A stretch of DNA of 24,255 bases from a virus. Numbering within the stretch: the stretch's first letter is position 1; the number at the start of each line of letters is the position of its first letter. Below the pieces are notes generated by a model. It saw only the letters and a program-made list of their open reading frames with translations, ran no database searches and had not been told where the DNA came from. A program made the translations under genes and the position numbers. Positions 2 through 23,702 of the stretch are shown piece by piece. The stretch is from the IMG/VR virus record IMGVR_UViG_3300044939_000143, positions 1 to 24,255 of that record; one strand, given 5' to 3'.

Positions 2-796
2 AACATGCCCCGCCCCTACGACGATTCTCACCCAGACTACAGGACGTCCAAGGACTTTGGTATGCGGTTTAGGCAGCTATTTTGTGCCCCACCAGGAAAG
101 CGGATTTTGGTGGCAGACTTGGACAGAATTGAGGTGGTTGTGCTTGCTTGGTTTTTGGCCAAATGCACAGGCGATAGCAAACTGCTTGACATAATAAACT
201 CTGGTGAAGACGTTCACTCGGCCAATGCCAAAAACTGGGGCATAAGCCGTAGCATGGCGAAGACTGTGCTTTTTCTTCTAATCTACGGAGGCTCGGCCAA
301 CCTAATCTACAAGCGAGGCTTAACTGCGTCTTTAGAAGAGGCAGAGAGGGTGTTTGCTCAGGTTCACTCAAACCAGCCGAGCATACAGCGTCTCCGCGAT
401 ATGTGCTTGTCTAAGGCCAAATCCAGGGTCCATGTGGATGGTGTGCCTGTTCTGTCAAACCCGTTTGGAGCCAGAGGAGTTTATCCAGAGTTGCTAAGTT
501 CAAACAAATGGGAGCGCTTGCGTGGAGAACGACAGTGCTTCAATTTTCTTATTCAAAAAACAGCCCGTGATGTGTTGCACTTGCTGCTGATTGAGTCCCT
601 TCCTTGTGTTGAGTTGGCAGGTGCTGCGTTTGTGAACGTGGTTCACGATGAGGCAATTGTTGAAGCAGATGAAGAAAAAGTTCCACAACTGCTGCAGGAC
701 CTAAACAGAATCTGGAACAACAGAATGGACATTCTCCAAGGGGTGCGAATTCATGGTGAGTGGCATGAAGGTGAGAGCTGGTTTGAGGCTAAATAA
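2..796 (+). CDS. DNA polymerase family A, C-terminal part (5' end outside window)
   Basis: This is the polymerase (palm and fingers) part of a Pol I/T7-type replicative DNA polymerase; the reading frame is open to the window edge, so the gene starts upstream. Counting from the Met at position 5, motif A has Asp38 and Glu43 (DLDRIEVVVLAWF). Motif B has Arg82, Lys86, Phe90, Tyr94 and Gly95 (RSMAKTVLFLLIYG), and motif C is VHDE with His213, Asp214 and Glu215. The Phe at the position of E. coli Pol I Phe762 predicts discrimination against dideoxynucleotides. Motif A is unusual: the Arg that normally follows Glu-Leu is Val. The 3'-5' exonuclease domain, if present, is not in view. The stop is followed by 72 noncoding bases and then the gp14-like gene on the same strand, so replication and virion genes adjoin. 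Confidence 0.93.
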   Translation, partial: NMPRPYDDSHPDYRTSKDFGMRFRQLFCAPPGKRILVADLDRIEVVVLAWFLAKCTGDSKLLDIINSGEDVHSANAKNWGISRSMAKTVLFLLIYGGSANLIYKRGLTASLEEAERVFAQVHSNQPSIQRLRDMCLSKAKSRVHVDGVPVLSNPFGARGVYPELLSSNKWERLRGERQCFNFLIQKTARDVLHLLLIESLPCVELAGAAFVNVVHDEAIVEADEEKVPQLLQDLNRIWNNRMDILQGVRIHGEWHEGESWFEAK

Positions 797-868: not shown

Positions 869-1909
869 ATGGGAGCAGCTGGTGCAGTTGCTGCCGGCCT
901 TTCAGCCGTCAGCGGCATTGTTTCATATACAAGCCAACAAAAACAAGCAAGTGCCCAACGCAAAGCACTTGCTTCTCAACAACAACAACAACAGCTTCAG
1001 GCTGAATTGCAGTTGTTTGCCATTAGAAACCAACGCTTGATGGATTCTCTTCAAGATGCGTTGGTGGATGCGGCACAACGAACCTCTTATTTGCAAACAG
1101 ATGCTGCGCTTAGAATGCAAGAGCGGTTGAACGAACTTGCTGCTCAAAACGCCATATTTGCAAGCAACATAGAGCTGCTTAAATCTGGGTTGGAACAAAA
1201 ACAAAAACAACTTCAAGCAGCTGAGAAAGCAAGTGAGCGCCGCAAGGCAGCAGCAGAGGAGTTTTTGTCGACTTTGTCAAATGAGAACCAAGATGTGGAG
1301 ACCCTTGCTAAGATCATACTAAGCAACCTAGAAAAGGCTGATGACAAACGGGCAACTATAGCCACTCTATTAGATATGGGCGCAGCTTCTGGTGGCATAA
1401 ATGAGGCTCTTGTGGCTCTCTTAGATTCTGGTGCGTTTGATGTTCTAAAACAAACTCAATTGTTTCAACGAAAGCAGCAAGAAAGGGATCAACAAATTGC
1501 TGCTTCTCGTGCCATCAGAAACACTTTTGAAACGTTGGCTGATGTTGGTAAAGGGATTGAGTCAACTTATGCGGGCTTGTTAAGCACAGAGTCTGACTTG
1601 TCAGCCAAGTTGAACCAAATCAATGCAGCAGCATCTGCTGATTTGGCTCGAAGAGCGTTTGAAAGTCAACGTCTGGTAAATGACCAATCATTCAAATTTA
1701 ATCTGTTGGCCAACGACATTGCCCGACAAAGCCGGTATTTGCAAAACCGACTAAATGAGCAAGCAGTAAAAGCTGGTACTTCGTTGGCTTTGGACACACT
1801 AGAAGCACAAAAACAGGCTATAAGACCACCAGGGTTTTTTGACTTCTTGGCTATTGGCATGAATGCAGCCACTGCCTACAAACAATTCACACCACCGAAG
1901 TTAGTTTGA
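869..1909 (+). CDS. gp14-like internal virion (DNA ejection) protein
   Basis: A 346-aa protein that is probably the small ejection protein of the internal core, matching T7 gp14 in role. It starts with a short Gly/Ala-rich hydrophobic stretch (GAAGAVAAGLSAVSGIVSY). About 250 residues of Gln/Ala/Glu-rich helix with coiled-coil character follow, including a Gln run encoded by CAA/CAG repeats near 979-995. The C-terminus returns to a hydrophobic patch (FFDFLAIGMNAATAYK). T7 gp14 has the same hydrophobic N-terminus, helical middle and alanine-rich end but is shorter, 196 aa. The ATG at 869 is preceded by AAGGAG at 851-856. The next gene begins 7 bases after the stop, so the two are co-translated. 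The call rests on architecture and position, not on a motif. Confidence 0.65.
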   Translation: MGAAGAVAAGLSAVSGIVSYTSQQKQASAQRKALASQQQQQQLQAELQLFAIRNQRLMDSLQDALVDAAQRTSYLQTDAALRMQERLNELAAQNAIFASNIELLKSGLEQKQKQLQAAEKASERRKAAAEEFLSTLSNENQDVETLAKIILSNLEKADDKRATIATLLDMGAASGGINEALVALLDSGAFDVLKQTQLFQRKQQERDQQIAASRAIRNTFETLADVGKGIESTYAGLLSTESDLSAKLNQINAAASADLARRAFESQRLVNDQSFKFNLLANDIARQSRYLQNRLNEQAVKAGTSLALDTLEAQKQAIRPPGFFDFLAIGMNAATAYKQFTPPKLV

Positions 1910-1916
1910 GGAAACT

Positions 1917-4900
1917 ATGGTACTAAACAACAGATACTTGGGCAGCGATGAGGCAATTTATTTGCAACAAAAGGCAGGTAATAGCCTGTTTGAATCAGCC
2001 TTGTCTGCTGCCAATAAAATAAACGAAAGCACTCAAAATTATTTGGACAGTGCACTAAAAATTAATGAGCGCTTCATGCAGCTTTCGCAACAAAACGAGG
2101 CAGCAAAAGCTGTTTTGGGTTCAGCTCAACCAGGGCTGGCGGTTTTGGCTGATGCAGGCCTAAAGTACATGGCCCTAAAGCAACAACACGAGCAAGAGTT
2201 GGCTAAGATTAGTCTACAACTAAAACAACAACAGCTTAAAAAGCTGTTGGATTCAAATTATGAGCAAGCCACATCTCGTATTGGTCAGCTCATGCAAGAC
2301 TACATAGAAAGCGGGGCATTGTTTAGAGAAACTCAAACTGACAAAGGCGTTGTCACCGGCCCTCAATCGTTTAGAGAGTCTGCTTTGCGTGAGCTAACAA
2401 ATGTTGGTGAGCTTGATCCTGATGACAAAGTAAAGCTGTTAAACAAAATTAATGAGTTTGCCGAATCTGCGTCCAGAGAAAGACAGCGAAAATTAATTGA
2501 CGCTTTAGAAAAAAACAAAGCAGCAAGGGCTGATGCAATTGTTGCTGGCTTGGAACTTGATGTTGTTCCGTTGATTTCCAACATAAAGAAAGCAGGTGTT
2601 ACTCAGCAAGCTAAGCCCTGGTTGGATGCAATTAGTCAGCGTTTAAAAGATTTTTTGGCAGCAGATAATGGGCTAGAGGAACACGAGAAGCTTACTGCAG
2701 CTGCACGTGTATTGAGGCAAGCTGCCGATGCTTATGGAGTAAAGGTGGAAAACTATGCCCAATACAACGCTGACCTTGTCAACTTCCAAAACTTTGTTCA
2801 AGAATATTACAAGGCTAGGATGGAATACGTTTCCCCAGCCTCAAAAGACTATAACAACTACGATGTGTTTAAGACCAAGGTCGGTTTGGCTGCTATCAAG
2901 TACGGTGATTGGACCAAAAACGTTGCGCAAATAAACGAAGCAGACAAGCTCAAGATGGAGGCCATTGAGCTACAACGTGCACAACAACGTGTTCAAGAAG
3001 AGGTGGTGAAGTCTGCTGGTATGCGCTTCCCATTCTCAAATGCTTGGTCTGTTTGGGTGGCTGCCAGTGCTATCAGCAACCCGTTCTTTGCAGCATCAAT
3101 ACAAAACTCTGAGTTTGGTGACAACCCTGCTACTAAAAATGGGCTATGGTTGGCTGAAGAGTATAAAAAGTATGAGAAAGATTTGACTGCACTACAGACT
3201 GAATTAGCTGGCTTAAACATTGATTTTTATCGAATGGATTTAAGGCGGGTAGATTCCATGTCTGCTGTGTTGAACAAACTGGCTGAGCGCAACACAACAG
3301 GTCAGCTATCGCCTGCTGATTTGGAGTTTCTTAACCAGCTTCAGCAAAATGCACCCGAACTTTACGGCATTTTAGCTTCCAAGCTAACCAATCCTCAACA
3401 GTCTTTAGACGTTGGTGCGCTAAGGCGGGCTCTTGATCTTGAGCAAAATGCCATTACTAGAATTCAAAACGCCATAATAGACAAACAACGCACCAAACAA
3501 GCTGAATTGAGGGCAAGATATGCTCACCTAGCACAAGCTGGGTTGCTGGTAGACCGTACCCAAATTGCCAAAATTGCACAGCAGTATAAGGCAGCTGCTG
3601 AAAAAGAGCTTTCAGAGGCCAACAAATTCGCCAATGAGTTAAAAGCACGGGTTGTTGTGCCACAGTTCTATGGTGTTCCACCAAATTTTGATGGCTCGTC
3701 CACGTATGCACCCGACGTGGACGCAAGCGGTAGGGTGCGCGTTGCACCTCGTGCCAGACTTCAAAACTTGCGTGTTGGAAATAACACAATAATCACGCCT
3801 GTTTTGGCTGGTGCAAATGCCCCAATCACCAGCCAATTTGGTGCTCCAAGACCGTCTAATAGGCGACACGCAGGTGTTGACTTTGGTGTTGAAGGCAATG
3901 AAAGAGCTGTGGCTCTTGTTGGCGGTGTTGCCTATGTAGGCAAAGCAGATGGTTATGGCAATTTTATTGACATCATAGGCGACAACGGCTTTGTATACAG
4001 GTATGCACACCAGCAAGCTCTTGTTAAGTCTGGACAAAGAGTGCAACCAGGTGAGCCAATAAGCTTCAGCGACGGTTCTGGCATAAACATTGGAGGTAAG
4101 CACTTGCATTTTGAAGTACGCAACAAAGCCAATTTTGATAGCAAAGGCAACTATGTTCCCTCCTTTGGCTGGGATGGTGTTGTTGACCCAATTGAGCATT
4201 TAAGAAGGCTAACAATCAAAGACAGTAACGTTCTTAAACCCAGATCAATTGGTGCTTTGTTTGCTCGCACCCATCCTTGGCTGAAAGCAAGTCCAAACAG
4301 TTTCTTAACACCTCAAGGAGCCATGCAAGCAAATGTTTTTCAAACGCCTACTTCCCAACCACAACCTGCAACCAATGTGTTCACGGCGCAACGCCCATTA
4401 AATAGAACTTATTTGCCCTTCACTAGAGGCAACGTCCAATCATATGATTATAATGACGACTACAACTACGCCATCCTTCGTAAAAACCCAACCTGGCGTA
4501 GGGCTTTGGTAGATGCTGCTCGTGCGCTAAAAATACCGGCTGTTTGGTTGGCCGACATTATTCAGCAAGAGACCAGTTGGAATATTCACAAACGCCATGG
4601 CGGCAGAATTACGGGCATAATCGGGTTTGATGACCCAACTGCTGGTGACAAGCCTTTTGAAACACAGGCCAAAATGGTTGTTGACTACTACAGAAAAGCT
4701 GGTTGGTTTGATGTTTTGCGTAAGAAGGGACCAAACGCCAGCATTGCTGACTTTTGGATCTTAACCAGAGCAGGTACTGTGCCTCTTCGCAGCCTGGGAG
4801 GCAAAAACATGCGTCAGTACATAATCGATGGCGGAGATCCATTTAAGCTGCGCATGAATGACACAGGCACCACGTTTGGGTATGAGCTTCAGCTGCTTGG

Positions 4901-5072
4901 TAAATGGGCTGGCAGACGCTACAACATCCCATACTCAGGTGGTGTCAACAGCAACTACAGAATAAGCAGGAACAAGGCTGTTTCGTTTGACTATCACCCC
5001 CATTGCAGCATTTGTAATGAGCTCCTGCTTTCTGGTTCATGGGTTCATCACCAACATGACAACACAATCTGA
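1917..5072 (+). CDS. Large ejection protein with M23 peptidase and lytic transglycosylase-like domains
   Basis: A 1051-aa virion protein predicted to enter the cell envelope during DNA ejection and open the peptidoglycan, in the role of T7 gp15/gp16. Residues 1 to about 600 are helical and coiled-coil rich. Residues about 625-765 form an M23 (LytM-type) zinc endopeptidase: His651 and Asp655 in RHAGVDFG, a YAH motif, and His729/His731 in HLHFEVR, which is the full metal-binding set. Residues about 860-1010 look like a lysozyme/transglycosylase fold, with Glu885 in IIQQETSW as the likely catalytic acid. T7 gp16 has only the transglycosylase domain, so two cutting activities here is a notable addition. 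The last 25 residues hold a Cys/His cluster (HCSIC then HHQH). The start is set by GAGG, which overlaps the stop of the upstream gene. Confidence 0.85.
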   Translation: MVLNNRYLGSDEAIYLQQKAGNSLFESALSAANKINESTQNYLDSALKINERFMQLSQQNEAAKAVLGSAQPGLAVLADAGLKYMALKQQHEQELAKISLQLKQQQLKKLLDSNYEQATSRIGQLMQDYIESGALFRETQTDKGVVTGPQSFRESALRELTNVGELDPDDKVKLLNKINEFAESASRERQRKLIDALEKNKAARADAIVAGLELDVVPLISNIKKAGVTQQAKPWLDAISQRLKDFLAADNGLEEHEKLTAAARVLRQAADAYGVKVENYAQYNADLVNFQNFVQEYYKARMEYVSPASKDYNNYDVFKTKVGLAAIKYGDWTKNVAQINEADKLKMEAIELQRAQQRVQEEVVKSAGMRFPFSNAWSVWVAASAISNPFFAASIQNSEFGDNPATKNGLWLAEEYKKYEKDLTALQTELAGLNIDFYRMDLRRVDSMSAVLNKLAERNTTGQLSPADLEFLNQLQQNAPELYGILASKLTNPQQSLDVGALRRALDLEQNAITRIQNAIIDKQRTKQAELRARYAHLAQAGLLVDRTQIAKIAQQYKAAAEKELSEANKFANELKARVVVPQFYGVPPNFDGSSTYAPDVDASGRVRVAPRARLQNLRVGNNTIITPVLAGANAPITSQFGAPRPSNRRHAGVDFGVEGNERAVALVGGVAYVGKADGYGNFIDIIGDNGFVYRYAHQQALVKSGQRVQPGEPISFSDGSGINIGGKHLHFEVRNKANFDSKGNYVPSFGWDGVVDPIEHLRRLTIKDSNVLKPRSIGALFARTHPWLKASPNSFLTPQGAMQANVFQTPTSQPQPATNVFTAQRPLNRTYLPFTRGNVQSYDYNDDYNYAILRKNPTWRRALVDAARALKIPAVWLADIIQQETSWNIHKRHGGRITGIIGFDDPTAGDKPFETQAKMVVDYYRKAGWFDVLRKKGPNASIADFWILTRAGTVPLRSLGGKNMRQYIIDGGDPFKLRMNDTGTTFGYELQLLGKWAGRRYNIPYSGGVNSNYRISRNKAVSFDYHPHCSICNELLLSGSWVHHQHDNTI

Positions 5073-7827: not shown

Positions 7828-7864
7828 CCACCACCCCCTTTCCTTTCCGTTGCCCGCCTGCGCT

Positions 7865-7888
7865 GCCCTCAAGCAGCCGGGGCTTTTT
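7865..7888 (+). terminator. Possible weak terminator after the tail nozzle gene
   Basis: GCCCT (7865-7869) can pair with GGGGC (7879-7883), leaving a 9-base loop, and TTTTT follows directly at 7884-7888. The stem is short and its inner pair is a T-G wobble. The position, 38 bases after the stop, fits the end of the plus-strand transcript before the island. Confidence 0.4.
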
Positions 7889-7930
7889 CTGTGGTTGGTT
7901 GGGGCTTTTGCCAGGGGGTGATTTTCCACC

Positions 7931-7957
7931 AAATCCCGACCGGATTGCCGGAGTTTC
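7931..7957 (+). repeat. 27-bp repeat, left-flank copy 1
   Basis: This copy shares with the other six C at position 7, GG at 12-13 and CCG at 18-20. It carries ATCCCGACCGG then CCGGAG. It lies 177 bp beyond the 3' end of the minus-strand gene at 8109. Confidence 0.7.
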
Positions 7958-8013
7958 CTGCGCTACATCGGCCTCACTTAGGCTGGTGCATGTGGGCCAA
8001 GAGGCAATCACCA

Positions 8014-8040
8014 GCAACCCGATTGGAATGCCGGAGATGG
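8014..8040 (+). repeat. 27-bp repeat, left-flank copy 2
   Basis: Same orientation as copy 1 and 83 bp from it. It reads CCCGATTGG then CCGGAGATGG. The 83-bp spacing is about two periods of the right-hand array, but I see no convincing copy between them. Confidence 0.7.
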
Positions 8041-8057
8041 CCCAGGTCGCAGGGGCC

Positions 8058-8091
8058 AAAAAAGGCCCGGTCAGCGGGTGCTGCTCAGGCC
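8058..8091 (-). terminator. Possible terminator of the minus-strand two-gene operon
   Basis: On the minus strand GGCC (8091-8088) can pair with GGCC (8067-8064), enclosing a smaller CAGC/GCTG stem, and six T follow (8063-8058). It lies 18 bases beyond the stop codon at 8109-8111. The stem has internal mismatches, so this is moderate evidence. The A-run also sits between GGGCC and GGCCC, an alternative small hairpin. Confidence 0.4.
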
Positions 8092-8108
8092 AGTGCAGGA
8101 GGGAAGTG

Positions 8109-8537
8109 CTAGGCGAGGTCCTCTAGGTCCTCATCATCAAGATCCTCAAAGTCATCGTCATCGTCATCATCAAGGTCATCCCCGTCAGGGTCTGAGGGGC
8201 TGTCAGAGTCGGCGTCAGGGGCCAGCTCAAAGAGGAGGGCAGTCACGTGGCGAAGGTCTTGCTCTGTGTCTTGGGTGTCTAGGTAGTCGAAGTGTTCGGC
8301 CACCCAATTGCCAAACCGCATGGCAAGTGGGACAACATCCTCATAGTCTGCAGTAGCTGAGTCAGCCACCGTGGCTGCGGCAAGCAGGGCAATGGCCTCT
8401 TTGAAAGACACGCCAAAAGCGTGGGCAATGAAGGTGGCCCGGTCCTGGGTGCGCGGGTGGTAAGGAAAGGCCCACACAATGTCGGGGCGAGAAACGCCTG
8501 CTTGCTTTAGTTCGCGGATGGTGGTTTTGATGTCCAT
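8109..8537 (-). CDS. Small protein with a very acidic C-terminal tail, function unknown
   Basis: A 142-aa protein I do not recognise. Residues 1 to about 105 look helical and soluble, with no signal peptide or membrane segment. Residues 108-142 are almost all acidic: about 22 of 35 are Asp or Glu, including seven Asp in a row at 123-129. Such tails occur in proteins that mimic or compete with nucleic acid, for example the RNA polymerase delta subunit and anti-restriction DNA mimics; applying that here is inference. The frame is open to a Met at 8597, but I chose 8537 because GGAGG sits 8 bases upstream (8546-8550) and the extra 20 residues cover an intercistronic hairpin. It is the second gene of an operon with the 198-aa gene, 78 bases downstream. 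Codon use is GC-rich, unlike the plus-strand genes. Confidence 0.8.
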   Translation of the reverse strand: MDIKTTIRELKQAGVSRPDIVWAFPYHPRTQDRATFIAHAFGVSFKEAIALLAAATVADSATADYEDVVPLAMRFGNWVAEHFDYLDTQDTEQDLRHVTALLFELAPDADSDSPSDPDGDDLDDDDDDDFEDLDDEDLEDLA

Positions 8538-8574
8538 GGTGAGTTCCTCCAAACTGGGTGGTCTGAGGTGATCA

Positions 8575-8599
8575 CCGTGGCTGCTGGGCGCAGCCACGG
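8575..8599 (-). other. Perfect 10-bp intercistronic stem-loop
   Basis: CCGTGGCTGC (8575-8584) and GCAGCCACGG (8590-8599) are exact inverse complements with a 5-base loop. The hairpin lies between the two minus-strand genes, just upstream of the Shine-Dalgarno of the acidic-tail gene. No T-run follows it, so it looks like an mRNA stabiliser, processing site or partial block to readthrough rather than a terminator. Confidence 0.75.
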
Positions 8600-8615
8600 A
8601 GGCTGAGGGCAGAAA

Positions 8616-16859: not shown

Positions 16860-17111
16860 ATGACAACAGACAACACAACAGGCAAATCGGGCTCTATTTT
16901 AACACTAGAAGACGAATTTTCAATTGCTTCAATGAACGCATTGTCAGACCAAATGAGCCGAGAGCAAGCAATTGAGTTTCTAAAGAAAGCATTTGCCCTT
17001 TATGTGACAACACGAAGGATGTTATTAGCCCACATGGAATCAACTTTACCAACGCTTTATGAGCATAATCAAAGACTACCAGAGGAAGAGGGCAGAACAA
17101 ACCCAACCTGA
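16860..17111 (+). CDS. nblA: NblA-family phycobilisome degradation protein
   Basis: An 83-aa protein with the signature of NblA, a small helical adaptor that binds phycobiliproteins and brings Clp protease to the cyanobacterial antenna. Residues 14-20 are LTLEDEF, like the L(S/T)LEQEF opening of NblA; 32-41 are MSREQAIEFL, like its MSREQAQ(E)xL centre; and a helix to Met59 follows, with two Arg at 52-53. The core is about 47 residues and the last 20 (TLPTLYEHNQRLPEEEGRTN) are extra. Cyanophages of freshwater hosts, such as Ma-LMM01 and PaV-LD, are known to carry nblA. Here the gene sits inside the virion operon between the adaptor and ejection genes. I chose the ATG at 16860 over a GTG at 16851. 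The 3' end overlaps the next gene by 53 bases. Confidence 0.8.
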   Translation: MTTDNTTGKSGSILTLEDEFSIASMNALSDQMSREQAIEFLKKAFALYVTTRRMLLAHMESTLPTLYEHNQRLPEEEGRTNPT

Positions 17112-20100
17112 GCTGCCCGTTTTAAAGCCACATCCTGTTGATGTGGATGTGATGCAGACAGCCCAACCAGATACTGAATCCAAACCAACCACAGAGCCAC
17201 CGCCATTGCCAGCACCAGAGCCAGGGTCACAAGAAGAGCCTGGTTTGGCCGTGAGTTTGGATCAGCCTGTGTTGCCACTGCAGGAGCCAGCGCCCACATT
17301 ATCATCATCTTCAACACCTTCTTTGTTGGCGGACCAGGCACTGATGGAGGCGTTGGAGCAGAATTCTGGTCCAATGCCTGGGAGCGCTGGTGCACCTTCG
17401 CCGCAGGAAATTGTGGACAAGGTAAGGCAAGTGTCACTGCCGTCTGTTTTGGTGGACATAGGACAAGAATTTGGAGACTCACGAATTTATGCGCCAGAGA
17501 TTATCACTACAAAGATCCCAACAGTCTATAACACACTCGATACAAAAGGCACCTACGAGCTCATCAAGCAAGGATATGCTGGGATTAACGACGCGGCAAC
17601 CCGCCGATTTGCCGAGCGACAAGCAGCAGTTGAACAAGCCCAGCGCATCTTAGAAAACAGGGACAGGTTGTTGAATGTGCCAAGGGCTGATCGGCCTTGG
17701 CATGCAACTCCTGCAGAGACAGGCAGCAACCCATGGCTTGACATTTTGTTTGGAAAACAGGAAATACGGGATAGCAACAAGTTCTCTCCGAATTTAGACC
17801 CAAGAAAAGCATCCTATGGGCAAGCAGGCTCGGGTTTGCTAGGCGGCCTCAACTACCTTTTTGGGTTGCCTCTCAACACAATATTGGCTGGAGTTGGGGA
17901 AATAGCAGAGACACTGTCAAGAGCAGTTGAGTCGGGATTGGTGGCCAAAGAAAAAAAACAACCTGCTCAAGCAAGACCAGAAGCCAACAACGTGATTCAG
18001 AATTTGTTTGGTGGCTCATTGCGAGCAGTGTTGGAGGCAAACAAAGGAGCCCTAACAAGAACAGCTGCTGAAAATGCCAGAAACGAGGCCATACGGGCCC
18101 TAACAGCATCGGGCTACAGTCAAGCAGAAGCCCAGAAACTGGTGCCACAAGAAACCCAACAAGGGTTTTCAAGGGACGCAATTGAACGCATCAAAAAAGC
18201 CACAGTAGATGCATTGGTAGCCAAAGGCAAAACACGGGAACAAGCCCAACAACAAGTAAATGATTTGAGGCTGATGGACTATTTGCCCATAGTGGGCATT
18301 GATGTGGAAAAGGCCAGAAAGCGCAACTTGCTGGCCGATGCTTTGAGAGGAGCACAAACAGGGGACACAAACGACCCTCAAGGTGCCAACAAAGGCGTGT
18401 TGTTTGCACCAAGACGGAGACGGGCAGTAAAAGGAGCACCAGCCACAAGCTCCTGGAAGAAGTTTAGGCCAGTGCAGCAGTTTGCGAATGATGTGTTTGC
18501 AATTGCCAAAGACGACCCCATTGGCACCGGCATAGAAGTTTTTACTCAGTTGTTTTTAGACCCATTTGACCTGCTCATTGGTGACACCCTCAAATCAGGT
18601 TTGAGGAAGTTGCGCCAAGTACGCAAACGCCAAGCCACATCACAATTAGCTTCTCAAGCAGCCCAAGCAGCTGCTTCTGAAGCCAAACTTTCACAAACAG
18701 CTTCTCAAGCAGGAAAAGCAGCAGCAACTGCTGCACAACCAGTTTCACAAGCGGCTCAATCAGCAGCAACTGCTGCACCACCTCCACAATCAGTTTCAAA
18801 AGCGGCTCAAGCAGCAGCAGAAACTGCTGCACCACCCTCACAAGCAGCAAAAGCTGTGTCTCAAACAGGCCAATCAGCCACGGTTACTTCACCATTACCA
18901 TCAGCAAAATCAGCTTCTCAAGCTGTAGCAGGAGCAGGTGAGCAAGCAGGGCAGGCGGTGACAAAGGCAGTACAGGGGCAAGTGAGGCAAGTCCAGCCAA
19001 GAGCCAGGCAAATACCTGCAGTGGAGATGGAACAGCCAGTGCGGCTTGGGCCAGAGCTAAATAGAAGCAAGCCGATGAAAACCAAAGTGGCACTGGAGGG
19101 CACAACTGATGTCATAACACAAGAAGTGAGGCCAGTTGTCGGTGGCAAAACAAAGCTGCCGCCCAACTCACCAGCAGAAGTTGCAGCCAGTGTGGGCATT
19201 GGGAGAGCATCAAAAACCCCAATTGATGTGCCTGGCAACATTGTGTTGAAGGGAGTTGACGATGTGCCAGGAGGGTTTCTCAGGGCCCGCACAGACGACC
19301 TTTTGGAAATTGCCGAACAATTGGCAGCCAATAAAGCAGTGGTGAACGAAAACCTCAAGCTGCTTGATGAGATGTTCAAAACAACCGTTGACTTTGGACG
19401 CAAGTCCATTGACAGGGTGCCGTATTCGGAAATAACCCCAGCCCAAGTAAAGCGGATAATAGAAACAGGCGGAAAATTGAATTTGCCTCCAAAGTCGTTT
19501 AGGTTTGTTGACAGAGAATTTAGGCCCTTCATAATGCGGGGCGACTATGAGGGATTGGCCCAAGTTGGCGGTTTTTCAAAAGAAGGCGCGTTGGACATAA
19601 TAGCCGAAGAGCTTGCCAATGCCAACAACACAACATTGCGCTATGCACAACGAGTGTTGCCAGAAGACCAGATGGCACTTCGTGAACTTAATTTTTCGAG
19701 GAAAAAACCATTTCTGGCAAAATTGCCAACCACCCTTTACCACGGGACTGCCATTGCTGACTGGAACCCAAAATACAATCTAGAGCTGTTTGGCACAAGA
19801 GGAGAGCTTGGGTCTGGGTTGTACTTGATTGACAATCCAGAAAAAGCAGCCATCTATGCAAAAGCAATGGTGAATATAAACGTGTCACCAGAAACACTGT
19901 CGAGAAAAATTGAACCGGCTGTGTATCAGGTAAGGCACTCCCTTAAAACCCCCCTAGACGCAAGAGCAGAACTTAGGACAACGTCGGAATTTGTTAAGAA
20001 AATAATAAGTTCTTTGCCTGTGCCAATCAGAAATGCAATCAACCAAAAAACCACCATTTCGTTTGCCAGCATGATGGACCTCATTGAAGAAACGCTGGTA

Positions 20101-20586
20101 AAAACAAAACAAGACACATCGGAACAGTCACTTCGCAAGATAAGTGATGCAATCAGCGACGGCTTACGCGACGCAGGGTTTGATAGCGTGTATGACCCTA
20201 AATCCGGCATATTAATGGTCCTAGATGAGGCAAGAGTGGAGGTAGTAAACAAAAACATGGTAGAGCCTCCCAAAACACCAATGGAGGCCATTGTGGCTCG
20301 CTACAACGCCGACGCCTACTCAGCTTACCACTTCCCAAAGAGGCTGTCTGTGGACTCGAACTTACGAGACAGCGCTGCGAAACTACTCAACCAACTAAAT
20401 GATGCCATAGACACCAAATTGCAAAAAGTGCAGCAAGAACTGCTTAATAGGGGCATGCTACCACAAGACACACCATTGCCTCCAAAAGAAGCAGTTGTGT
20501 CTTCTAAACTTGATAAAGCCCCAATAACCGTAGAAGAAGCACTTAAGAACATACAAAATAGGAGCTCATCACCATGCCAACCTTAA
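17059..20586 (+). CDS. Large ejection protein with ADP-ribosyltransferase-like domain
   Basis: A 1175-aa protein in the position of a T7-like internal core protein. Residues 1-130 are Pro/Glu-rich. A hydrophobic stretch at about 260-284 (GLLGGLNYLFGLPLNTILAG) may insert in membranes, and 520-645 is an Ala/Ser/Gln low-complexity linker. Residues about 885-1070 resemble ADP-ribosyltransferases of phage polyvalent proteins: YHGT (His895), GSGLYLIDNPEKAAIYA (Tyr922), VYQVRHSLKTPLDA, and a final GFDSVY...LMVLDEARVEVVN segment. In related sequences the last motif has Glu before the aromatic residue; here that place seems to be Ile, so activity is uncertain. The likely role is modification of host proteins after injection, which is inference. 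The start lies inside nblA; no good Shine-Dalgarno is visible and coupling is probable. Confidence 0.75.
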   Translation: MSIIKDYQRKRAEQTQPELPVLKPHPVDVDVMQTAQPDTESKPTTEPPPLPAPEPGSQEEPGLAVSLDQPVLPLQEPAPTLSSSSTPSLLADQALMEALEQNSGPMPGSAGAPSPQEIVDKVRQVSLPSVLVDIGQEFGDSRIYAPEIITTKIPTVYNTLDTKGTYELIKQGYAGINDAATRRFAERQAAVEQAQRILENRDRLLNVPRADRPWHATPAETGSNPWLDILFGKQEIRDSNKFSPNLDPRKASYGQAGSGLLGGLNYLFGLPLNTILAGVGEIAETLSRAVESGLVAKEKKQPAQARPEANNVIQNLFGGSLRAVLEANKGALTRTAAENARNEAIRALTASGYSQAEAQKLVPQETQQGFSRDAIERIKKATVDALVAKGKTREQAQQQVNDLRLMDYLPIVGIDVEKARKRNLLADALRGAQTGDTNDPQGANKGVLFAPRRRRAVKGAPATSSWKKFRPVQQFANDVFAIAKDDPIGTGIEVFTQLFLDPFDLLIGDTLKSGLRKLRQVRKRQATSQLASQAAQAAASEAKLSQTASQAGKAAATAAQPVSQAAQSAATAAPPPQSVSKAAQAAAETAAPPSQAAKAVSQTGQSATVTSPLPSAKSASQAVAGAGEQAGQAVTKAVQGQVRQVQPRARQIPAVEMEQPVRLGPELNRSKPMKTKVALEGTTDVITQEVRPVVGGKTKLPPNSPAEVAASVGIGRASKTPIDVPGNIVLKGVDDVPGGFLRARTDDLLEIAEQLAANKAVVNENLKLLDEMFKTTVDFGRKSIDRVPYSEITPAQVKRIIETGGKLNLPPKSFRFVDREFRPFIMRGDYEGLAQVGGFSKEGALDIIAEELANANNTTLRYAQRVLPEDQMALRELNFSRKKPFLAKLPTTLYHGTAIADWNPKYNLELFGTRGELGSGLYLIDNPEKAAIYAKAMVNINVSPETLSRKIEPAVYQVRHSLKTPLDARAELRTTSEFVKKIISSLPVPIRNAINQKTTISFASMMDLIEETLVKTKQDTSEQSLRKISDAISDGLRDAGFDSVYDPKSGILMVLDEARVEVVNKNMVEPPKTPMEAIVARYNADAYSAYHFPKRLSVDSNLRDSAAKLLNQLNDAIDTKLQKVQQELLNRGMLPQDTPLPPKEAVVSSKLDKAPITVEEALKNIQNRSSSPCQP
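18721..18846 (+). repeat. Imperfect in-frame tandem repeat in the ejection protein gene
   Basis: Three unequal units, 18721-18762 (42 bp), 18763-18813 (51 bp) and 18814-18846 (33 bp), each begin GCAGCA(GA)AACTGCTGCA. They encode AATAAQPVSQAAQS-type linker segments. All units are multiples of three, so the frame holds while length can vary. Confidence 0.75.
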
Positions 20587-23500
20587 GGTGTCCAGCACCT
20601 CCTTCACCACCTCAAATGAACAACCTGCCAGGGTCTGCCATTGCGAAGCGCATAAAAGCGCACTACGAGGAGCTTCGCAAGCAAGCTGGTGTTTTGTCTT
20701 CCCATCACATAATGGAACTTAGATTGCAACACGATTATGCCATAAAGGCCCTTTCTGTTGCCCATCTTCCTGTGTTGAGAAACTACAGCCGCCTCGAAAG
20801 CTGGGTGGCCAAAAACCTGGGGTGGAAGAGCTGGCTGTGGCAAGCTCCCCTAGAGGCCATGACAGAAGCAGGAGCAGTGAGGTATGCACTATTAGACAGG
20901 GTTAACATGGCCAAGAACCTAATTGAAACTGCCGCCATTTACAAAGCCCTCCCTGACATTGACAAACTCTATAAGGAGCTAAAAACCGCACTGCCTTTGA
21001 TGCCAGAATATCAACTGCAAGAGCTGGTTTATGACCACATAATAGTGGGCCAATATCCCAAGCTATACAACGTTATTGACTCCCCAGTTGTTCGCAATCA
21101 ACTAATAGCTCGTTACAACAAACACATTAGCAAGCTAACCGATCTTGGTGTGGACACAGAAACAATTCGTTTATTAGACCGCTTAAGCGGGCGCATAAGC
21201 GAGGCCTATGACAACCTGCGCTATATTGCAGCCAAAGAAGGGCTGTCGTTGGAAACGCTTAAGAACGGCGGTTATTTTCCATTGCAAGTTCAAGAAGAGG
21301 CAAAAAAGCTTATCAGTGCATTTGCTGAAACAGTGAACCTAACTTCACCATCAAAGTCAATTGATGCCAACGAGTTTTTGTCAGCAACCAGATCCAGCAA
21401 TGTGCCTGTTGTGCTAAAGCCCTCCATCATGGCCACAATTCTTGGCATGCAAGAGCACGAACTAATTCAAATTGCCTCACAACCAGGTGAATTGTCTAGG
21501 CTGCTTAAGTCCAAGCTAAAGCCCGAGCAGATTGAGAAGCTGTTTGAAAGCGGGTTTTTGTCTCAAGCGCCTGCCATGAGCGACGAGCTGACTGAGTTTT
21601 TTCGCACTCAACTGGATTTGCCCATTCGCCACCTTGGCGAGGCTGTTGTGTTGGATCCAGTAAAGGCCATAAAGGAATATGCAGACCAGCTAAAGGATGC
21701 AGTGTCAAAATCCACATTAGTAAAAGATTTGCTAACAGAAGGCATTGAAAAAGGCTGGGTTGTAGATAGTTCATTTATCAACCAAAACACAAAGTCCTTT
21801 GTTAGGTTGTCATCATTGCCTGTGGTTAAAAAAGCATTTGAAGAAGCTGGTGTGCCAACAGAACTGCAAACGCTGTTTGTTCACAGAACAGTGGCAGACC
21901 AAGTAAGCAGCATATTGCAGCTCAACCAAAGCTGGGCAGACTTGGGAATGGTTGGTCAGTTTGTGCAAACCTTGGTTATTCCCTACACAAGAGTGTTTAG
22001 GAAAGCCGCCTTAATGGCTGCTCCAATAAACTACATCAAGCGAGTAATGCTGCAGAACGTGGTGGCACTGTATGCAGCAGCTGGCGACCTAAGCCAGCTC
22101 GGCATTGCAACTGCTGAAGTCACACGAGCATTTGTGCAAAAGAACCTGGACGTTTTTCCCAAAAACGTGACAGTAGTCATAGGCAACGAAAGCTACAGCC
22201 TCAAAGACTTGTTTGAAGCCACAATGCTTAAACGGGGAGGCGATTTTATAACTGCCATGGGCGAACGCATGGAACGCGTTCGGCACCCTCTAGAGCGGCT
22301 AAACACCAAGTCAATGCAAAGGTTTTTTGTGTTTAACAAGGCCTACCACGAAAAGTTTGGGTCGCCGTTCACTGGCAAAATACAAACAGCAGCAGAAATG
22401 CTAAAAGAAATGACCAAAGCCCCGTTTGATGCCGCTTATGCGGTATTGGCGGCAATAAACCAACACGCTGACTTTGCAGCACGGTGGGCTGCTGTGCGTA
22501 CATTGGCCCTAAAAAAGGGCAACCAATTTGAAAGCATTGACGATCTAATCAGACACACAGACGAGTTTTTTCAAATCAACATAGACACAGGAGTCGTTGG
22601 ACGCGTGTTAAGCAGCGTGGGCATGCCGTTTGCCTCATTTGCATTGGCTGCTCCTGGAGCAGCACTGCGCTACACGCTCATGTATCCGTGGCGTGCAGCT
22701 CGGATGCTAAAACTGTATGCCTATGCCATGAATGGCCAACACCTCACTGATGCTGAAATGGCGCAGTGGCAAAAGGACGATTATGTCATTGCCATTGCTT
22801 ATGACCCAGAAACTGGTAAAGCATATGGAGTCATGCCAACAAGCGTTGACTTTTACCTCTCAAGCTTTTCTTGGTTTCGAGAGCTCGCAGAAGACATTGG
22901 ACGCAGCATGGGCGCTCCCGTTGGCAGTGTAAAGGAACAAGTTGAACAACAGAAAAACCCTCTCAAACCGTTTGAAGACCTGCTAAAAGAATTTGCTTCC
23001 AAAACCTATGTAAGCACTTTCTTTCCCCTCATGGGCATAAATCCCGACACACTAGAGCCATTGGAAGGAGCTGCTGACGAAGACACTCTGCTTGGTGTGC
23101 CCATGCCACGGTCATTGAGAGAATTGGCAACAAGGGCGTTTCCGTTGCTAAAGTCAGCAGACGAAAAGTGGTTGCCGCCTTCAATTGTTGGACAGGCACA
23201 AAGAACATCACCCACCGGATGGGTGCAACAACAAGGACAACCAGGGTGGCTAGGGCGCACACCTTCGTTTGGAGGACGAAGGCAGCGTATGGAACCAGTA
23301 GAACCGTTTGGGTGGTTGTTTAGCAACCTAGGTGGTCTTACGTTGGTAGCAATTGACCCACAATCTAACATTGTGAAAACCTATGAGGATTTTGACAAAC
23401 TCCAAACCGACATAAGCAGCACAATCAACAAAATCAACAAACGACTGTTAAAAGAAGCTTCCACCTTGTCTGATGCTGACAAAGCAGCATTAGCAGACCA

Positions 23501-23702
23501 ACTAAACCAGTTTCTCCGGCTCAGGTTCTTGTTGAAATACAACAAGTTTTTGGTTGACAAATTGGCCCAAGAACGAGGGCTTGCCAAACCAAGCGCTCTA
23601 AAACTACTCCGCTCTCAGTTTACAAACTCAATAAAACCCAGCCAATTTGAAGACGCCAAAGAATTTATAAAACACTACATTAACAACGAAAAAGGACAAT
23701 GA
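20574..23702 (+). CDS. Large internal virion / ejection protein, unknown fold
   Basis: A 1042-aa, mostly helical protein following the ART-like protein. By size and place it is a core or ejection protein; its sequence does not show the T7 gp16 transglycosylase motif, which is on the 1051-aa protein instead. Two stretches are notably hydrophobic and amphipathic, about 460-505 (VIPYTRVFRKAALMAAPINY) and about 681-719 (MPFASFALAAPGAALRYTLM). They resemble helical segments of the large polyvalent-type proteins that phages inject and could form a membrane conduit. The last 150 residues are helical and charged. The ATG overlaps the upstream gene by 13 bases and has AGGAGC in good place. The stop TGA overlaps the next ATG (ATGA). 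Confidence 0.7.
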   Translation: MPTLRCPAPPSPPQMNNLPGSAIAKRIKAHYEELRKQAGVLSSHHIMELRLQHDYAIKALSVAHLPVLRNYSRLESWVAKNLGWKSWLWQAPLEAMTEAGAVRYALLDRVNMAKNLIETAAIYKALPDIDKLYKELKTALPLMPEYQLQELVYDHIIVGQYPKLYNVIDSPVVRNQLIARYNKHISKLTDLGVDTETIRLLDRLSGRISEAYDNLRYIAAKEGLSLETLKNGGYFPLQVQEEAKKLISAFAETVNLTSPSKSIDANEFLSATRSSNVPVVLKPSIMATILGMQEHELIQIASQPGELSRLLKSKLKPEQIEKLFESGFLSQAPAMSDELTEFFRTQLDLPIRHLGEAVVLDPVKAIKEYADQLKDAVSKSTLVKDLLTEGIEKGWVVDSSFINQNTKSFVRLSSLPVVKKAFEEAGVPTELQTLFVHRTVADQVSSILQLNQSWADLGMVGQFVQTLVIPYTRVFRKAALMAAPINYIKRVMLQNVVALYAAAGDLSQLGIATAEVTRAFVQKNLDVFPKNVTVVIGNESYSLKDLFEATMLKRGGDFITAMGERMERVRHPLERLNTKSMQRFFVFNKAYHEKFGSPFTGKIQTAAEMLKEMTKAPFDAAYAVLAAINQHADFAARWAAVRTLALKKGNQFESIDDLIRHTDEFFQINIDTGVVGRVLSSVGMPFASFALAAPGAALRYTLMYPWRAARMLKLYAYAMNGQHLTDAEMAQWQKDDYVIAIAYDPETGKAYGVMPTSVDFYLSSFSWFRELAEDIGRSMGAPVGSVKEQVEQQKNPLKPFEDLLKEFASKTYVSTFFPLMGINPDTLEPLEGAADEDTLLGVPMPRSLRELATRAFPLLKSADEKWLPPSIVGQAQRTSPTGWVQQQGQPGWLGRTPSFGGRRQRMEPVEPFGWLFSNLGGLTLVAIDPQSNIVKTYEDFDKLQTDISSTINKINKRLLKEASTLSDADKAALADQLNQFLRLRFLLKYNKFLVDKLAQERGLAKPSALKLLRSQFTNSIKPSQFEDAKEFIKHYINNEKGQ

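Follow-up and report, generated by a model that had tools for sequence, protein, structure and literature searches.

An ADP-ribosyltransferase-fold domain lacking the catalytic glutamate in a predicted pre-ejectosome core protein of cyanophages

The 24,255-base virus record IMGVR_UViG_3300044939_000143 of IMG/VR, analysed as a whole and called the window below, has on its plus strand an uninterrupted open reading frame (ORF), 17059-20586, for a protein of 1175 amino acids (aa) that is orthologous to a pre-ejectosome core protein of cyanophages and contains an ADP-ribosyltransferase (ART) fold domain of the H-Y class. An initial annotation had pointed to ART-like motifs at window 19710-20270, which is residues 885-1070 of the ORF, and family profile, profile-profile comparison and fold match now agree on an ART-fold domain at about residues 886-1070. 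Every homologue examined keeps the His and Tyr of this class and none has the catalytic Glu. The favoured reading, given roughly an even chance, is that the domain works as a mono-ADP-ribosyltransferase (mono-ART) once ejected into the host. The relevant features are these:

17059-20586, plus strand: gene for the core (pre-ejectosome) protein, 1175 aa, orthologue of A-4L gp27, Pf-WMP3 ORF26 and Pf-WMP4 ORF32 (ORF; tblastn, profile E=8e-19; synteny; terminal Cys motif)
19714-20268, plus strand: ART-fold domain near the C-terminus, residues 886-1070 (AlphaFold2 model of residues 870-1140, fold and profile comparisons)
19741-19749, plus strand: motif I, H895-G896-T897, with H895 the first predicted catalytic residue (H895 and G896 unchanged in all 16 homologues)
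19804-19824, plus strand: motif II, E916-L-G918-S-G-L-Y922, with Y922 the second predicted catalytic residue (E916, G918 and Y922 invariant in 16 homologues)
20209-20226, plus strand: strand 5, ILMVLD, with I1051 at the catalytic-Glu position and D1056 five residues later (alignment with Glu-bearing ART-PolyVal-type references)
20575-20577, plus strand: C-terminal cysteine C1173 in the tail ...SPCQP (Cys tail in 16 of 16 homologues)

The YHGT of the initial annotation is Y894-T897. The stretch GSGLYLIDNPEKAAIYA starts at G918 and takes in Y922, the Tyr of motif II, and residues 1050-1063, the closing beta segment, read GILMVLDEARVEVV.

Relationship to ADP-ribosyltransferases

Single-sequence Pfam and PHROGs matches were not counted as evidence on their own. 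Against Pfam ART-PolyVal (PF18760) the whole protein gives E=0.042 and 15.1 bits and the excised domain E=0.01 and 17.1 bits, both under the gathering cut-off of 31.2, and the reference from Salmonella phage moki scores 42 bits. PF18760 scans of the window's and its relatives' genomes gave matches below the cut-off or none, and the Pfam scan of the window protein recognised no domain besides the ART-PolyVal match. Two PHROGs labels, 'ParB-like partition nuclease' (phrog_33290) and 'RNA polymerase ADP-ribosylase' (phrog_832), belong to families apparently built around these very proteins, as near-full-length matches to the Pf-WMP3 and Pf-WMP4 proteins indicate, and were set aside as not independent.

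The relationship is carried by comparison of families. A hidden Markov model made from Saffermanviridae-type homologues only gave the window ORF 63.6 bits (E=8e-19), the best of 500 shuffled copies reaching 5.6 bits, and hhalign of the window domain with the Saffermanviridae-type family returned probabilities of 98.8-99.2 with E from 7.6e-17 to 3.2e-19. With tblastn against phage records E was about 1e-2, and 8 of the 10 records hit, all at the ART domain, were of podoviruses of filamentous cyanobacteria (Pf-WMP3, A-4L, TR020, LPP-2 and allies). The assignment of the ORF to this family rests also on synteny and a terminal Cys motif kept in common with the Saffermanviridae proteins. A close-relative scan with the window ART protein (P0001) confirmed nothing; environmental contigs encode close relatives with 42-59% identity in the domain. 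The suggested affinity with the ARTs of phage polyvalent proteins holds as well, since comparison with references from phages moki, phiD3, K751 and ctQRb9 gave an hhalign probability of 96.7% (E 4e-10), and the CHP58 homologue matches ART-PolyVal with E from 0.0012 to 1e-6. Among three close relatives the ratio of nonsynonymous to synonymous substitution rates (dN/dS) is 0.07-0.16 in the ART domain, as against 0.34-0.44 in the protein's own linker, which places the domain under purifying selection. An Ala/Gln/Pro-rich, low-complexity linker (residues 521-690, window 18619-19128) varies greatly in length among relatives, and in one of them (L007:5712-10013, residues ~480-950) it has a long PALEGA/PQLTG-like repeat array.

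Structure prediction with comparison of folds, by which the initial annotation was to be checked, also recognised the ART superfamily, both in the PDB and in BFVD. A template-free AlphaFold2 model of residues 870-1140, from an eight-sequence alignment that included A-4L, has a mean predicted local distance difference test (pLDDT) score of 69.7 and a predicted template modelling score of 0.65; the full-length model (pLDDT 43.8) was too poor and was left out of the fold searches. The best PDB match of the domain model, with a Foldseek E of 1.2e-12, is positions 1421-1664 of chain B of 9k3a, an entry titled 'Cyanophage A4 pre-ejectosome with C1 symmetry', and VIA-align superposes the two with Z 17.4 and 2.6 A over 229 residues. 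The next VIA-align rows are MbcT (Z 8.0), diphtheria toxin (~7.4), ParT (7.1) and Tpt1 (7.0), and lower come PARP14/10 (~6.1-6.4), PARP13 and tankyrases (~6); RES toxins are also listed, and the sole listed row of another kind, going by its title, is the anti-CRISPR entry 6kyf (Z 6.0). Such Z values of 6-8 are modest and mutually tied, and support membership of the ART superfamily with no subgroup indicated. Among predicted viral proteins in BFVD the top named matches include phage ART-PolyVal proteins, with E down to 4e-7 at probability 1.00. A chance match of motifs with no ART relationship behind it, for which the sub-threshold single-sequence Pfam match might have spoken, is already refuted by the profile E-value with its shuffled controls, by the Z of 17.4 and by further fold matches that are nearly all ARTs.

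The active site

In an alignment of 16 homologues with a median pairwise identity of 22%, only 8 positions among 221 window residues are invariant: H895, G896, E916, G918, Y922, R1037, G1040 and R1081. Two of them, the strand-1 His H895 and the strand-2 Tyr Y922, had been predicted beforehand to be catalytic and are the residues that ART-PolyVal domains have in these places. In A-4L the counterpart of H895 is H1426. E916 is an acidic residue specific to the family, a Glu in all 16 with Thr or Trp as its counterpart in the references.

At the third position the expectation of an intact ART active site finds no support. All four ART-PolyVal-type references begin the last catalytic strand with a catalytic Glu (EMVVF in Salmonella phage moki, EVVVY in Dickeya phage phiD3, EIVLY in Klebsiella phage K751 and EIVVF in podovirus ctQRb9), and not one of the 16 family members has Glu, Asp or Gln there. 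The residue is Ile1051 in the window, Phe in close relatives, Thr in Saffermanviridae and Arg or Thr in CHP58. The strand-5 segment is short and was aligned by eye, with the G[FYVI]D motif ahead of it as an anchor; Pf-WMP4 gives the clearest case, TVAVYDPAIIK standing against EIVVFDPASVK, and in the relative L014 the segment of this strand region is GFDSVYDKKSGFVMALD. As Ile1051 occupies the catalytic-Glu position, the window triad reads H-Y-I (H895-Y922-I1051), the same letters as in the mono-ART PARP10. Triads of the form H-Y-hydrophobic are typical of active mono-ARTs, PARP10 and other human ones among them, in which the substrate supplies the charge (PMC9189837). The R-S-ExE motif of the Alt/VIP2 type is absent from the window protein.

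The virion setting

That the protein belongs to the virion, as the initial annotation had supposed, is supported by homology: chain B of 9k3a is identical in sequence to A-4L gp27 (1717 aa), the syntenic orthologue of the window protein, and from this orthology we infer a virion location for the latter. The gene directly following it, in the window as in relatives, encodes a homologue of A-4L gp26, which is chain A of the same structure; A-4L gp28 (identical to 9k2v_E) and gp29 are found in PDB 9k2v. The neighbouring features of the window that bear on this setting and on the host are as follows:

20574-23702, plus strand: gene for a second core protein of 1042 aa, homologous to A-4L gp26, with 13 bases shared with the ART gene (9k3a_A matched by phmmer at E=2.8e-51)
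869-1909, plus strand: T7 gp14-like internal protein, P0011 (T7_gp14 PF24072 E=3.6e-5, 24.2 bits, cut-off 27)
1917-5072, plus strand: internal core protein with an M23 peptidase domain, counterpart of A-4L gp28 in 9k2v (Peptidase_M23 E=4.2e-15; phrog_21656 E=5e-48)
16860-17111, plus strand: NblA-like gene, its start codon inferred, directly upstream of the ART gene and overlapping the start of the latter (Pfam NblA PF04485 E=7.2e-8, 33.2 bits, cut-off 25)

All 16 ART proteins end in a Cys tail. In the window the SPCQP tail lies at the 13-base overlap with the next gene, but it is not a by-product of that overlap, as A-4L and Pf-WMP3 keep the Cys tail where the genes do not overlap. A Cys also falls within the first 8 residues of all 10 gp26-type proteins examined (C6 in window ORF 20574-23702), and five of six M23 proteins, represented in the window by the C-terminus of ORF 1917-5072, have a C-terminal CxxC cluster followed by a His, the exception being TR020. 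These terminal cysteines of three core proteins possibly serve in metal binding, as disulfides or as assembly signals.

The structural genes of the window form a T7-like set (terminase, portal, scaffold-like, major capsid, adaptor, internal and tail genes). In Saffermanviridae the adaptor gene is followed by those for the nozzle, the gp14-like, M23, ART and gp26-like proteins and the fibre, in that order; in the window, by contrast, the packaging genes have the gp14-like, M23 and tail genes ahead of them, and the ART gene comes after the adaptor and nblA-like genes. A family A DNA polymerase is represented by its C-terminal part, encoded directly before the gp14-like gene (window 2-796, plus strand, E 3e-30), again in an order unlike that of the examined Saffermanviridae records. 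Some 2.5 kb between a tail gene and the packaging genes (window 7828-10373) have only short ORFs without Pfam matches, several of them on the minus strand.

NblA acts in phycobilisome degradation. An NblA-like gene is paired with the ART gene in all near environmental relatives too, L007, L008, L009 and L011-L014 among them (at L007:5555, L008:4225, L013:5254 and L014:5365, for example, close to the ART gene), which places a host-takeover gene within the structural cluster, and nblA genes are known in freshwater cyanophages (PMC5083919). Because of the NblA-like gene and the filamentous cyanobacteria that relatives of the window phage infect, a cyanobacterial host is very likely; together with the T7 gp14 match of P0011 they sustain the description of the source as a T7-like cyanophage.

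A second ART domain in some relatives

In five genomes (Pf-WMP4, LPP-1, JingP1, Dor1 and Pbo-yong3) the same protein has near its C-terminus a second, canonical ART domain of the R-S-E class with its R, STS and ExE motifs intact. It exceeds Pfam cut-offs in the Pf-WMP4 and LPP-1 orthologues (best E 1.1e-9 and 9e-10), and the GenBank label of the Pbo-yong3 protein is 'mono-ADP-ribosyltransferase-like'. In Pf-WMP4 ORF32 (L005:7355-11734) it lies at residues ~1250-1400, and the other records with it, L019, L020, L021 and L022, are likewise of the Wumpquatrovirus/Morrisvirus group. Lbo240-yong1 (L018) keeps the H-Y domain and has a different segment in place of the R-S-E domain, which is absent. 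On this comparison of sequences the H-Y domain seems to be a constant element of the protein, and the R-S-E domain an optional addition to it. A segment of A-4L ORF27 (L002:7759-12912) ahead of the ART domain, residues ~1300-1410, appears ParB-like by eye, and RefSeq labels Pf-WMP3 ORF26 'ParB-like partition nuclease'.

Possible functions

In the leading reading the protein of this Saffermanviridae-like cyanophage would be packed in the virion alongside the other core proteins and, in this phage too, would leave with them at infection. Within the host the ART domain is predicted to bind nicotinamide adenine dinucleotide (NAD+) through H895 and Y922 and, having Ile1051 in place of Glu, to catalyse mono-ADP-ribosylation in the manner of PARP10, with the missing charge coming from an acidic residue of the target or from the invariant E916; that E916 replaces the lost Glu is a hypothesis. 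A likely purpose would be to reprogram the host early, ahead of phage gene expression. Of the targets proposed at the outset, host RNA polymerase is a guess by analogy with T4 Alt and photosynthetic proteins are a guess also. The former is somewhat more plausible because a T7-type RNA polymerase (PF00940) was found in none of the five relatives with complete records, nor in one 38-kb environmental contig, the T7 control giving 1e-109. The retained His and Tyr, the purifying selection and the intact ART alongside in the same family all favour this reading. Several points weigh against it: the family-wide absence of an acidic or amide residue at the Glu position; the presence there, in most members, of Thr, unlike the hydrophobic residue of known H-Y-Phi mono-ARTs; the occurrence of the H-Y domain in 16 of 16 homologues, as a constant part and not as a swappable effector; and the medium confidence of the domain model. 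A-4L ORF27 has been placed with three other genes on a plasmid in Synechococcus 7942, where the salt phenotype arose also from ORF25/26 without ORF27 (PMC9410186); this is weak as counter-evidence because expression of ORF27 was low (PMC9410186).

Somewhat less probable, and still a serious contender, is a pseudo-enzyme: an ancestral ART would have ceased to be catalytic and would now help to assemble the pre-ejectosome, perhaps with its former NAD+ pocket as a site for binding or packing. It would account for the loss of the Glu in all 16 proteins and for the constancy of the domain in every family member, even in those without a second ART; the equivalent region, moreover, is ordered enough in the virion to have been built (9k3a_B 1421-1664), and the terminal Cys motif and a flanking helical segment with R1081 are conserved along with the domain. 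What it would not lead one to expect is that H895 and Y922 should be among so few invariant positions at so low an identity, if the pocket were idle. An NAD+-consuming enzyme with no protein target, which would lower host NAD+ or block NAD+-based defence, is very improbable. Hydrolase or phosphorylase activity on NAD+ is reported for the toxin MbcT. The latter is the second-best fold match and a missing Glu could disfavour transfer chemistry, but MbcT, diphtheria toxin, ParT and Tpt1 lie within about one Z unit, a ranking that does not discriminate, and the few copies of a core protein in each virion would deplete NAD+ slowly. A canonical ART-PolyVal enzyme with D1056, at the end of strand 5, as its third residue is improbable, though the ARTs of polyvalent proteins were defined by H in strand 1, Y in strand 2 and D in strand 5 (Iyer et al. 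2017; PMC5512222). TR020, Pf-WMP4 and the window clade have Asp at this position, but A-4L, Pf-WMP3, LPP-1, LPP-2 and Lbo240 have Asn, in CHP58 the position is missing, and moki, phiD3 and K751 have Lys there with their Glu five residues earlier. Unlikely, if a little less so, is a bolder form of the mono-ART reading, in which the cyanopodovirus ejectosome has a built-in mono-ART of a new active-site type, its strand-5 Glu lost family-wide and functionally replaced by E916 of motif II, so that a structural part of the ejection machine would double as the earliest enzyme at work on the host, a second, R-S-E ART having been added in some genera.

Comparison with known systems

The domain may modify proteins of the host as soon as infection begins, or it may be a piece repurposed for a structural role. 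In this cyanophage family every member examined has an ART-fold domain in its pre-ejectosome protein, an orthologue of which has been solved in the virion. An enzymatic job for a core protein, beyond its part in the DNA channel, would be directly testable on A-4L and Anabaena/Nostoc, and for phages that have no T7-type RNA polymerase the domain is a candidate means of influencing the host ahead of the reading of their first gene.

The best-known examples of ARTs delivered with the virion come from phages with contractile tails, T4 for one. Ejected phage proteins with ARTs were already on record in T4 Alt and in polyvalent proteins, including one of an N4-like podovirus (PMC5512222), and a survey put the share of siphoviruses and podoviruses that have ARTs at only 3% (PMC9503650). 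New, as far as checked, is a family-wide, Glu-less H-Y ART domain in a cyanopodovirus pre-ejectosome core protein, though the authors of 9k3a may have noted the ART fold.

The nearest counterparts are A-4L gp27 and its orthologues Pf-WMP3 ORF26 and those of TR020, LPP-2 and CHP58, which share with the window protein the core-protein gene set, the neighbour, the ART domain (hhalign 99%), the Cys tail, the H and Y motifs and the want of a catalytic Glu. Identity is only ~20%, the window protein is shorter (1175 aa compared with 1205-1717 aa), its third position is Ile where theirs is Thr or Arg, and its gene follows the adaptor and nblA genes where theirs follow the M23 core gene. With ART-PolyVal (PF18760; Iyer et al. 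2017) the domain has in common the H-Y class, the order of motifs and probably also descent and delivery with the virion, but the references keep a Glu before [IVM]VV[FY] or similar, whereas the window domain scores under the Pfam cut-off, its strand 5 is preceded by a long helical insert, and no further effector domain was recognised in its protein. Among standalone proteins the one nearest in sequence to the motif I-II segment, at 35% over ~78 aa, is moki_205 of the Kuttervirus/Limestonevirus group (phrog_4700), annotated as a putative structural protein; unlike the window protein, it is of 149 aa, is an ART alone and has the catalytic Glu. PARP10-type mono-ARTs (H-Y-I) have the triad letters and the superfamily fold in common with the window domain and, at a Z of ~6, no closer sequence relationship. 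T4 Alt, of the Alt/VIP2 R-S-E clade, is alike in expected action only, as a virion-carried ART-fold protein acting at the start of infection; its active-site class, R-S-E, is unlike that of the window protein, and it is the five Wumpquatrovirus/Morrisvirus orthologues that have an R-S-E domain in addition to their H-Y domain.

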